Part shown: piece after piece, positions 45,278 through 48,705 of the stretch
Position numbering within the stretch: position 1 is the stretch's first letter
Layout of the letters: each line of letters begins with the position of its first letter
From: Myroides odoratimimus
GTDB taxonomy: Bacteria > Bacteroidota > Bacteroidia > Flavobacteriales > Flavobacteriaceae
DNA: 64,000 nucleotides
Reading direction: 5' to 3'
Assembly (NCBI RefSeq): GCF_001485415.1
Contig: NZ_BCMQ01000002.1
Span: forward strand, 124,001-188,000
Made by a program: the position numbers and the translations under genes
Notes under the pieces: model-generated
What the model saw: only the letters and a program-made list of their open reading frames with translations
Database searches by the model: none
What the model was told of the DNA's origin: nothing

Positions 45278-46132
45278 ATGAAGAGACTTTTATTAGGAGT
45301 GTGCGCTTTCTTAGCAGTGTATTCAGCTCAGGCTCAGGAAACTGAGGCTAATACAGCAACAGAAGCTGTTAGCCCATGGACAAGAACGGGTAATTTTACT
45401 TTTTTACTTAACCAATCTAGCTTCTCAAATTGGCAAGCAGGTGGAGATAATAACGTATCTGGAAGTTTTAAAGTGAATTACGATTTCAATTACAAACAAG
45501 GTGATTGGAACTGGGATAATAAAATAATTGCTAGTTATGGTCTTACTAAGTTAAAAGGGCAAGATCAGAAAAAAACGGATGATAGATTAGAGTTTAACTC
45601 TTTACTAGGTAAAAAAGCTCAAGGTAATTGGTTCTATTCTGCATTCTTGAATTTCAAGACTCAGATGGATCGAGGGATAGATAAAGATGGAGTATACAAC
45701 TCACACTTTATGTCTCCAGCTTACTTACAAGTAGGACCTGGTATGTTGTGGAAAAAGAGTGATAATTTGAAAGTGAATATAGCACCAGCTACTTCGCGTT
45801 TCATTTTTGTTCATGACCACTTTACAGAGTTTGGTGATGCTTTTGGTGTTGAAAAAGGTAAATCAATGAAATACCAACTGGGGATGTCTGTTAATGGATA
45901 CTACAAATTCGACATTATGGAGAATGTATCTGTTGAGAATATCTTAAACTTATATTCTAACTATCTGAAAAAACCAGAGAATGTGGTAATTGATTATCAG
46001 TTGAATGTAGTGATGAAGATTAATAAATATCTTTCTACAAACTTTACATTCCAAACAATCTATGATGACTTAGCTTATAAAGGCTTCCAAGTTAGAGAAA
46101 TGGTTGGAGTAGGAGTAAACTACAACTTCTAA
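45278..46132 (+). CDS. DUF3078 outer membrane beta-barrel protein
   Basis: 284 residues with a signal peptide (1-19, ending AQAQ). WTRTGNFTFLLNQSSFSNWQAGGDN is the DUF3078 start, and alternating hydrophobic strands run to a C-terminal VGVGVNYNF ending in Phe, as in outer membrane barrels. Function unknown. It has its own promoter, so it is probably separate from the suf operon. Confidence 0.85.
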   Translation: MKRLLLGVCAFLAVYSAQAQETEANTATEAVSPWTRTGNFTFLLNQSSFSNWQAGGDNNVSGSFKVNYDFNYKQGDWNWDNKIIASYGLTKLKGQDQKKTDDRLEFNSLLGKKAQGNWFYSAFLNFKTQMDRGIDKDGVYNSHFMSPAYLQVGPGMLWKKSDNLKVNIAPATSRFIFVHDHFTEFGDAFGVEKGKSMKYQLGMSVNGYYKFDIMENVSVENILNLYSNYLKKPENVVIDYQLNVVMKINKYLSTNFTFQTIYDDLAYKGFQVREMVGVGVNYNF

Positions 46133-46144
46133 GAGAATATATAT

Positions 46145-46178
46145 AAAGAAAAGGTTGGCATCTGCCAACCTTTTCTTT
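46145..46178. terminator. bidirectional terminator between the DUF3078 gene and asnA
   Basis: AAAGAAAAGGTTGGCA and TGCCAACCTTTTCTTT arms, 16 pairs. Confidence 0.88.
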
Positions 46179-46179
46179 A

Positions 46180-47184
46180 TTATAATAGGTTAATCCCTTT
46201 TAGTTCAGCTTCTTTTCTTACTTGTTCTGGCCAGATACTCGCTTGTACTTCTCCAATATGCTTTTTGCGTAATAAAAACATACAAATTCTCGACTGACCA
46301 AGACCTCCACCTATACAAAGAGGTAACTTGTCCTCAAGTAATAAGCTGTGATATAACAATGATTTTTTATCTAAAGCTCCTGCTAACTCTAATTGATGTT
46401 CTAAAGCTTCTTTGTCTACTCTAATTCCCATAGAAGATAGTTCTAATGATTTACCATGAACAGGGTTCCAAACTAGTAAATCTCCATTTAGTCCTTTATA
46501 ACCATCTTCTGTAGGAGTAGTCCAATCATCATAGTCAGCAGATCGGCTATCATGCGGAATGCCATTAGATAGCTTTCCTCCAATTCCTATAATAAAAATA
46601 GCTCCATATTCTTTCGCTATTGCATGTTCTCTTTCTTTTGGAGCAAGAGTAGGGTATAGTTGTAAAAGTTGCTCAGAATGGATAAAAGACAGTTTTTTAG
46701 GTAGGATAGGTTCTATTCCTAGTTCTTCATATATTCTGTGTTCTGTGTCTAGCAATGTTTGATAGATCGAACGTACTATATTTTTCAAATAACTTAATGT
46801 TCTATCTGCTTTTTCAATACGTAACTCCCAGTCCCATTGATCTACATAGATAGAGTGTATAGGACTACTATCTTCGTCAGGACGAAGAGCTTTCATATCT
46901 GTTAGAATTCCCTCATGAGCATCTAACTCTAGCTCTTGTAGTCTTATTCTTTTCCATTTTGCTAATGAGTGAACTACTACACCGCGATTGTTATTTAGAA
47001 ATTTTACAGGGAATGACACTGGACGCTCTATACCGTTTAAATCATCATTAATACCTGTGCCTTCATTTACGATCATAGGTGATGATATAGGGTATAGGTT
47101 AAGTGCGTCACATAGTCCTTTAGAGAATTGTTCTTTGACTAATGCAATGGATTTTTCTGTTTGTAAAATTTCTTTTTTGCTCAT
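46180..47184 (-). CDS. asnA: aspartate--ammonia ligase (asparagine synthetase A)
   Basis: 334 residues, near the E. coli 330. Conserved blocks: VNEGTGINDDLNGIERPVSF, VVVHSLAKWKRIRL, SIYVDQWDWE, KLSNGIPHDSRSADYDDW and CIGGGLGQSRICMFLL. It makes asparagine from aspartate, ammonia and ATP, with a class II aminoacyl-tRNA-synthetase-like fold. It stands alone. Upstream on its transcript lie an Asn-rich leader ORF (47268-47348) and an intrinsic terminator (47211-47242) that together look like an attenuator sensing charged tRNA-Asn. Confidence 0.97.
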   Translation of the reverse strand: MSKKEILQTEKSIALVKEQFSKGLCDALNLYPISSPMIVNEGTGINDDLNGIERPVSFPVKFLNNNRGVVVHSLAKWKRIRLQELELDAHEGILTDMKALRPDEDSSPIHSIYVDQWDWELRIEKADRTLSYLKNIVRSIYQTLLDTEHRIYEELGIEPILPKKLSFIHSEQLLQLYPTLAPKEREHAIAKEYGAIFIIGIGGKLSNGIPHDSRSADYDDWTTPTEDGYKGLNGDLLVWNPVHGKSLELSSMGIRVDKEALEHQLELAGALDKKSLLYHSLLLEDKLPLCIGGGLGQSRICMFLLRKKHIGEVQASIWPEQVRKEAELKGINLL

Positions 47185-47210
47185 GATTTTTTGTTTTTGA
47201 ATTTGTTTTA

Positions 47211-47242
47211 AAATAAAAAAGGCTCCTCAGAGAGGAGCCTTT
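47211..47242 (-). terminator. attenuator terminator in the asnA leader
   Basis: On the minus strand, AAAGGCTCCTC and GAGGAGCCTTT form an 11-pair stem with a 3-base loop, followed by TTTTTTATTT. It ends 26 bases before the asnA ATG and lies 25 bases after the leader stop. As it is upstream of the gene and far from hflX, it is best read as a premature terminator. Confidence 0.88.
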
Positions 47243-47267
47243 AAACGGATAATGAAATAATATATAA

Positions 47268-47348
47268 TTAACTTAAATCAATGCCAATAGGATTCCTCTT
47301 CGAGTCGTAGAAACGATTCAAATTATTATTAGAGAAATTATTGTTCAT
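47268..47348 (-). CDS. Asn-rich leader peptide of asnA
   Basis: A 26-codon frame, checked codon by codon, that opens MNNNFSNNNLN. Eight codons are Asn, seven of them within codons 2-11; the frame ends with TAA at 47268. The bases 47304-47294 (minus strand CTCGAAGAGGA, codons 15-19) can pair with TCCTCTCTGAG inside the terminator hairpin at 10 of 11 positions, with one wobble and one mismatch. A ribosome stalled at the early Asn codons would leave this segment free to block the terminator; one reaching the stop would cover it. This is the expected logic for asparagine biosynthesis. Its ribosome-binding site is weak and its promoter is not placed. Confidence 0.8.
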   Translation of the reverse strand: MNNNFSNNNLNRFYDSKRNPIGIDLS

Positions 47349-47446
47349 TGATAAATACATATAATCAGCTTTTTAGCAATACTGTAAAAATAGAAAAAAT
47401 ATTATTATCTAATCTTCTTTTACTAATTAATTTATAAACAAATATT

Positions 47447-48679
47447 TTATTCTTCTTCTGAAGATTCAATTAAATGGTCATAATCTGGGAATAAAAAGTT
47501 GTTGTAAGGGAAACGTGTAATGTGGATTTCACGTACTGCTTCGTAAACTTTCTTTCTAAACTCTTCAAAGTTTTCTTTGTTTGTTGCTGAGATAAAAATA
47601 GCATTGTTTTCACCTACTTTATTCATCCAAGTCTTCTTCCATTCTTCTATTGAATAGTGTTTAGAAGTGCGTTCTGTCATTAGATCGTCTTCTTCGATTC
47701 TCTCAGGTTGATAAGCATCTATTTTGTTAAATATCATAATAGTAGGCTTGTCATTACTCTTGATATCTTTAAGGATCTCATTTACAGATTCGATGTGATC
47801 TACGAAGTCATGATGAGAAATATCTACCACGTGTAATAATAGATCTGCTTCTCTTACTTCATCTAAGGTACTTTTAAATGACTCGACTAACTGAGTAGGT
47901 AGTTTACGAATAAACCCTACAGTATCTGACAATAAGAATGGCAAGTTACCAATTACGATTTTACGTACAGTAGTATCTAGCGTTGCAAACAACTTATTCT
48001 CTACGAATACTTCACTTTTACCTACAGCATTCATTAGTGTAGACTTACCCACGTTAGTATATCCTACTAAGGCTACTCGTACCATTGCTCCACGGTTTCC
48101 TCTTTGAGAAGCCATTTGCTTATCGATTACCTTTAATTTATCTCTTAAAAGGGTAATACGGTCACGTACGATACGTCTATCTGTTTCTATCTCTGTCTCT
48201 CCAGGACCTCTCATTCCGATACCTCCACGTTGTCTTTCTAAGTGCGTCCACATACCAGATAGTCTAGGTAATAAATACTGGAATTGTGCTAGCTCTACTT
48301 GAGTTCTTGCATACGAAGTTTGTGCTCTTTGCGCAAAGATGTCTAGGATTAGGTTAGTACGATCTAGTACTTTACAGTCTAGCTCCCTAGAAATATTCTT
48401 TTGTTGAGCAGGCGATAGTTCATCATCGAATATCACGGTATGAATATCGTTCTCTACAATATAATTATGAATTTCTTGCATCTTCCCAGTACCAACAAAG
48501 GTCTTAGGGTTCGGCTTGTCCATTTTCTGTGTAAAACGCTTATATACTTGTCCTCCTGCAGTAAATGTCAAAAACTCTAATTCGTCTAAATACTCATTTA
48601 GCTTTGATTCATCTTGATCTTGTGTAATGATTCCAACGATTACAGAACGTTCAAAATTTATTTCTTCTCTATCAATCAT
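47447..48679 (-). CDS. hflX: GTPase HflX
   Basis: 410 residues from the ATG at 48679. The upstream in-frame TTG is rejected because it is part of the -7 element. The N-terminal HflX domain has ARTQVELAQFQYLLPRLSGMWTHLERQRGGIGMRGPGETEIETDRR. The G domain has GYTNVGKST, DTVGFIRKLP and NKID. It binds the 50S ribosomal subunit and rescues or splits stalled ribosomes. Upstream neighbour of the asnA leader, separated by about 100 bases. Confidence 0.95.
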   Translation of the reverse strand: MIDREEINFERSVIVGIITQDQDESKLNEYLDELEFLTFTAGGQVYKRFTQKMDKPNPKTFVGTGKMQEIHNYIVENDIHTVIFDDELSPAQQKNISRELDCKVLDRTNLILDIFAQRAQTSYARTQVELAQFQYLLPRLSGMWTHLERQRGGIGMRGPGETEIETDRRIVRDRITLLRDKLKVIDKQMASQRGNRGAMVRVALVGYTNVGKSTLMNAVGKSEVFVENKLFATLDTTVRKIVIGNLPFLLSDTVGFIRKLPTQLVESFKSTLDEVREADLLLHVVDISHHDFVDHIESVNEILKDIKSNDKPTIMIFNKIDAYQPERIEEDDLMTERTSKHYSIEEWKKTWMNKVGENNAIFISATNKENFEEFRKKVYEAVREIHITRFPYNNFLFPDYDHLIESSEEE

Positions 48680-48697
48680 ATAAACTATATTATAGTG

Positions 48698-48705
48698 CAA
48701 AATTA
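48698..48705 (-). promoter_or_regulatory. -7 element of hflX
   Basis: TAATTTTG on the minus strand fits TAnnTTTG and ends 18 bases before the ATG. Confidence 0.55.

Follow-up and report, generated by a model that had tools for sequence, protein, structure and literature searches.

The asnA locus and its leader ORF

The window, a stretch of 64,000 nucleotides from Myroides odoratimimus, carries asnA, which encodes the ammonia-dependent asparagine synthetase, downstream of hflX on the minus strand. The two genes are separated by a gap of 262 nt that contains a short, Asn-rich ORF and an intrinsic terminator (Table 1). An earlier note on this DNA had described the Asn-rich frame as 26 codons long, with eight Asn, starting at an inner ATG. 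The frame and its eight Asn are present upstream of asnA; its start is better placed at the outer ATG at 47360, and the resulting 30-codon form (MYLSMNNNFSNNNLN...) is the likelier one because L002 and L005, two loci of the same genus, start with MYQSLNNN there. With this start, eight of the 30 leader codons ahead of asnA specify the end product of the pathway.

The Asn-rich leader ORF exceeds chance expectation. Among 1,792 ORFs of 6-60 codons on both strands of the window, it was the sole one with at least five Asn per 12 residues (it has seven). When the 262-nt gap was shuffled 5,000 times, no shuffle yielded an ORF with seven Asn in 12 residues. The intrinsic terminator of 11 pairs reported to lie between the leader and asnA was likewise found, together with its T-run. 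A leader segment proposed to pair with this terminator, CTCGAAGAGGA (47304-47294), matched TCCTCTCTGAG at 10 of 11 positions by hand count, one of the pairs being G-U. Computation placed the strongest duplex with the terminator arm slightly downstream of that segment (47300-47288, -11.3 kcal/mol), and 11 of 300 dinucleotide shuffles gave one as good. The 161-nt leader RNA including the terminator folded 4.7 SD below dinucleotide shuffles.

Matches to sigma-70-type promoters occurred at shuffle level (10 found versus a mean of 9.9), and inspection by eye upstream of nine leaders gave no convincing Bacteroidota-type promoter. An Rfam scan of positions 45500-48500 returned 11 matches up to E 5, every one below its gathering score and no T-box among them.

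Table 1. Genes and RNA elements at the asnA locus (positions in the window)
Feature	Position	Strand	Remarks
hflX	47447-48700	minus	Upstream neighbour, context and not part of the switch; TIGR03156, 435.8 bits
Leader ORF, MYLSMNNNFSNNNLNRFYDSKRNPIGIDLS	47360-47268	minus	30 codons from the outer ATG at 47360, the likelier start; stop codon 47270-47268
Frame from the inner ATG, MNNNFSNNNLNRFYDSKRNPIGIDLS	47348-47268	minus	8 Asn
Asn cluster NNNFSNNNLN	47316-47345	minus	7 of the ORF's 8 Asn codons; proposed stall region; similar clusters in relatives
Region 1, Asn-codon strand	47331-47343	minus	Pairs with region 2 in a predicted protector hairpin; moderate column support across relatives
Region 2, antiterminator strand, AAGAGGAATCCTA	47288-47300	minus	Within the last third of the ORF; from duplex computation; matching place in 24/24 type-A elements
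Region 3, terminator 5' arm and loop, AAGGCTCCTCTC	47230-47241	minus	Common to antiterminator and terminator
Intrinsic terminator hairpin	47242-47218	minus	11 pairs, then T-rich run 47217-47211; stem covaries in relatives
asnA, aspartate--ammonia ligase	46180-47184	minus	TIGR00669, 415.6 bits (cut-off 292.8), E 1.5e-124

Asn-rich leaders upstream of asnA in relatives

We found asnA in 5 of 61 genomes of the genus and in 23 of 299 genomes of the family, and above the family score cut-off in 8 of 395 genomes of the order and 22 of 395 of the class, with overlap among the samples. Named records contributed 80 loci, the highest-ranking among at least 589. A total of 133 distinct asnA loci was left after removal of 24 partial, low-scoring matches (L112-L133, L156 and L157; 10 more such matches had no locus) and of one duplicate, L031 and L140 being the same contig and counted once. 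The set retains L155, which at 291.7 bits falls just below the cut-off of 292.8, and L021, L025 and L033, which have less than 300 nt of upstream sequence and were included nonetheless.

A locus was scored as carrying a leader when a short ORF with at least five Asn in 12 residues lay within 450 nt upstream, a threshold that was chosen after the scores were known. By this measure 27 of the 133 distinct loci carried an Asn-rich short ORF; the earlier note had named the absence of such an ORF from relatives as refuting its reading, and this first check did not refute it. In the remaining 106, many of them titled Prevotellaceae or Bacteroidales, no short ORF within 450 nt had more than four Asn in 12 residues. 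Leaders preceded asnA at four of the five loci of the genus sample and at 8 of 23 loci of the family sample, the other 15 family loci having no Asn-rich leader. Named carriers were Hymenobacter (Cytophagales), Vaginella and an uncultured Mesonia (both Flavobacteriales), Solirubrum, a Bacteroidales MAG (L065) and an uncultured Bacteroidetes MAG (L107). Two further loci fell outside the count: L003, from the window's genus, has a degenerate leader with four Asn in the peptide and keeps the terminator and the layout, and L041 has an ORF with six Asn in 12 residues at -554 in a 700-nt scan, beyond the 450-nt limit.

A covariance model also matched a locus on which it had not been trained, L143 (45.1 bits, E 0.0006), where an Asn-rich leader was then confirmed. 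Searching 149 class genomes with the model gave two matches at E <= 1e-4, both of them ahead of asnA; weak matches may have been lost in this search because the filters were strict and 20 candidates were scored per genome. The weaker matches in the window's own genome had E values from 0.004 to 1, and many of them were plain gene-end terminators; others were the Trp, Ile/Val/Leu and Met leaders described further below.

Other asparagine genes gave negative results on the same measure. For asnB, 30 loci were collected from 61 genomes of the genus, and 0 of the 28 that were correctly placed (L198 and L201 were excluded on this ground) had at least five Asn in 12 residues. The M. odoratimimus genome encodes an AsnRS (605.6 bits), and its asnS has no Asn-rich leader ORF.

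Two module types, alone and in series

The leaders sort into two types. Type A (24 elements), to which the window's single module belongs, has Asn clusters followed by codons such as R.RKAI and commonly a AAGCCTTCC-like terminator thereafter. In type B (13 elements) the Asn codons are packed more densely, a proline run often comes next, and the terminator is commonly AGCCTGC-like. Type A was followed by type B at 11 of the 26 typed loci (L007, L010, L014, L016, L038, L065, L107, L108, L109, L150 and L151); 13 loci had type A only and two (L009 and L011) had type B only. The leader of L143 is untyped and is outside the 24 A and 13 B elements used in the pairing, covariation and folding tests below. 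Type-A terminators were located by script in 21 cases and by eye in three (L014, L016 and L150), as were by eye the type-B terminators of L014, L016 and L107.

The proline run of type B directly follows the Asn run in L007, L010, L065, L107, L109, L150 and L151 (e.g. SPPPGG, RPPPGK, TPPGGD), where it may form an RNA stem (CC..GG) or slow the ribosome a second time. At five other loci (L029, L030, L032, L036 and L037) a G+C-rich stretch resembling an inverted repeat was seen by eye between the type-A terminator and asnA; it contains no Asn-rich ORF and occupies the position that type B has in the tandem loci, and is possibly a relic or some other element.

We regard it as slightly more probable than the reverse that Bacteroidota place structurally distinct Asn-reading attenuators, A and B, in series before asnA, that two terminators answering to one amino acid would make the response steeper and tighter, and that this serial design is general, the last point being read so because two Met-rich leaders precede metY in the window's own genome. 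The question that these modules pose is why two attenuators for the same signal should stand in series.

The leader and the terminator arm co-vary

The strand that pairs best with the 5' arm of the terminator begins just past the Asn cluster, at element position 49-66, in every one of the 24 type-A elements. Compared with dinucleotide shuffles, the duplex of regions 2 and 3 was in the best 5% for each of the 24 (mean z -3.5; worst case 15/300). Type-B duplexes were weaker (mean z -2.2), and 5 of 13 fell outside the best 5%: L007 (82/300), L010 (65/300), L109 (47/300), L065 (25/300) and L150 (20/300).

When the arms were permuted among loci, own-arm duplex energies summed to -361.2 in type A against -269.5 (SD 14.4) for permuted pairs, and to -167.5 against -126.6 (SD 8.6) in type B; for each type 0 of 20,000 permutations was as good, with kinship ignored. 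When the arms were reversed or complemented to control for composition, z lay between -1.34 and +0.49 (type A, -1.25 and -1.34).

In a MAFFT alignment whose antiterminator columns were taken from member sequences, the eight-pair antiterminator had 87.2% of its cells paired, with 15 two-sided changes at five pairs. None of 500 shuffles matched the percentage, the two-sided cells or the covariation score, kinship again being ignored; the number of pairs with two-sided changes was equalled by 74 of 500. Paired cells dropped to 38-68% in slid registers. In the terminator stem 92.4% of cells were paired, and 8 of its 10 pairs showed two-sided changes. A protector hairpin (1:2) was predicted in many single sequences, and its column pairing came to 58.2% and 42.4% for the outer helices and 78.5% and 66.7% for the inner ones.

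Thus, leader and terminator arm co-vary in type A, and the compensating changes that the earlier note had proposed to look for in relatives are there. The terminator sits between the leader ORF and asnA in the window and in the 24 type-A elements, and the antiterminator uses the terminator 5' arm as well, as judged from the duplex, permutation and alignment tests. At the level of sequence and comparison, we consider the ORF, the predicted terminator, the alternative pairing with its covariation and the recurrence before asnA to be established.

Ribosome position and the proposed switch

In a fold model, the footprint and edge of the ribosome were assumed, and the nascent RNA beyond that edge was folded. 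With the ribosome on the Asn cluster, all 24 type-A elements were predicted to pair at least eight bases of the terminator arm upstream; on the isolated last Asn codon of L001, L030, L109 and L150, just two, three, six and seven arm bases were paired in the fold model. The stop-codon case could be evaluated for 23 of 24 A and 9 of 13 B elements. With the ribosome there, the model left no arm bases paired upstream in 18 of the 23 type-A elements and two to six in the other five, and four of the nine type-B elements retained two to eight paired bases. For the window's element, nine arm bases were predicted to pair on stalling and two at the stop. The type-B element BL038, stalled on its first Asn codon, had none. 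Without a ribosome, 15 of the 24 type-A elements, among them the window's, still had at least eight arm bases paired upstream; these folds favour the antiterminator, which leaves it in doubt whether termination is the default.

Taken together, the evidence makes the asnA leader very probably a transcription attenuator of the classical kind, worked by the ribosome and with asparagine as its signal. Transcription would start upstream of 47360, with the leader ORF translated behind the polymerase. When charged Asn-tRNA is ample, the ribosome would run past the Asn codons to the stop codon and cover or pass region 2, so that region 3 could pair with region 4 and transcription would stop ahead of asnA. 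When it is scarce, the ribosome would pause on the Asn cluster and leave region 2 free for the emerging region 3; pairing of the two would preclude the terminator, and asnA would be transcribed. We infer a promoter, a translated leader, ribosome stalling and an asparagine response. The comparison supports the attenuator interpretation of the earlier note. Its observation was right and fell short of what is there, a family of putative Asn-reading attenuators that comprises two modules, arranged in series at 11 of the 26 typed loci.

Alternatively, the RNA switch may be real but respond to something other than Asn-tRNA charging, such as the general rate of translation, a protein that binds the RNA or a small molecule, with the run of Asn codons serving only for slow decoding. 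The retention of the layout by L003 of the same genus with few Asn codons, and the 15 of 24 ribosome-free folds that already favour the antiterminator, would fit such a driver. However, the amino acid of the run is the product of the downstream gene at asnA, other leaders of the same genome also match their genes (Trp before trpB, Met before metY), and the lack of any Rfam family at gathering score counts against a driver other than Asn; we therefore consider this explanation improbable.

Still less can be said for the hairpin as the 3' terminator of hflX, with the Asn-rich frame an accident of A+T-rich intergenic DNA. Such DNA makes AAT repeats likely, and hflX lies upstream on the same strand, ending about 200 nt ahead of the hairpin. 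In tblastn searches with the window's HflX, however, hflX was upstream at just 4 of 28 leader loci (the 27 plus the degenerate L003; L001, L002, L003 and L005) and was not upstream at the other 24 within 0.9-3 kb of sequence, so that leader and terminator travel with asnA. The co-variation of the leader with the terminator arm speaks against an hflX terminator, and the rarity of the frame among window ORFs and gap shuffles against an accident, which makes this reading very hard to sustain. That the leader encodes a functional small protein, as the similar, R.RKAI-like peptide ends of many type-A elements might suggest, is just as improbable, because the similarity falls on region 2, which co-varies with the terminator at the level of bases, and type-A ORFs range in length from 15 to 36 residues.

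Relation to known leaders

The attenuation mechanism itself is known in kind. Enterobacterial trp, his and leu attenuators combine a short ORF with codons for the end product, a mutually exclusive antiterminator and terminator, and a biosynthetic gene downstream. The asnA leader resembles them in its codon-rich short ORF, its exclusive hairpins and its downstream gene; it differs in its proposed signal (Asn), its target (asnA), its carriers (Bacteroidota) and the placement of the antiterminator strand in the last third of the ORF. The T-box leaders of Firmicutes, some of which precede asnA, bind tRNA directly. They share with the proposed asnA switch tRNA charging as the signal and an asparagine synthetase gene as a possible target, whereas the asnA leader has a coding ORF and gave no T-box match up to E 5 in the Rfam scan.

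Among flavobacteria, the accessible text on F. psychrophilum offers clues to leader-peptide attenuation upstream of amino-acid biosynthesis operons (PMC9723704), a case like the present one in these respects. Its main text does not contain the word 'asparagine', and its passages on attenuation name no amino acid and no asn gene. Leader-like ORFs are mentioned for B. thetaiotaomicron in the accessible part of PMC7366714, and neither asnA nor asparagine appears in the main text of PMC4833913 or PMC2965389. The earlier note knew of no Asn leader peptide of this type described for asnA in Bacteroidota. In the open-access literature, supplements aside, we found no Asn-specific leader peptide; the statement of the note needs qualifying in that leader-peptide attenuation in a flavobacterium had been reported in general terms, as far as the accessible text goes (PMC9723704).

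Two attenuator short ORFs in one leader are described for Salmonella mgtCBR, where, according to the accessible text, mgtM and mgtP answer to ATP and proline (PMC3641672). The asnA tandem loci are similar to this described case in having two short ORFs with putative attenuation, and are unlike its two signals (PMC3641672) in that both tandem modules carry Asn codons; the window has one module. Within the open-access literature searched, supplements aside, a tandem layout for the same signal and Asn as the signal appear to be new. Leader-peptide attenuation would thereby be extended to asparagine, in a switch family of Bacteroidota that is backed by covariation.

Other leaders in the M. odoratimimus genome

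Two tandem Met-rich leaders, MNTVYTMMMTMMMWRNPRGLLFA and MIFNTNTMMMAMMMMNMMMFTTPYCLKSTS, were seen upstream of metY (TIGR01326, 631.5 bits) at G000:C1:323529-323862 (L161, L166 and L223), each ORF being followed by a terminator-like hairpin. Among 21 genus metY loci above the cut-off, two of which were not correctly placed, a short ORF rich in Met or in Met and Cys lay within 800 nt at 14, and seven of the loci had two, both counts being made without a chance control. Met and Met/Cys leaders raise the question of how a leader reads methionine when translation itself begins with this amino acid. Upstream of trpB (TIGR00263, 573.4 bits) lies a leader with WWW and a terminator (L160; G000:C10:48890-49036), and at a further locus an Ile/Val/Leu-rich leader, MKNLVNILVVLIIVIVVNTFARESLC, is followed by a terminator (L165; G000:C15:63253-63400). 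Given these Trp, Ile/Val/Leu and Met leaders, the asnA switch looks like one of a set.
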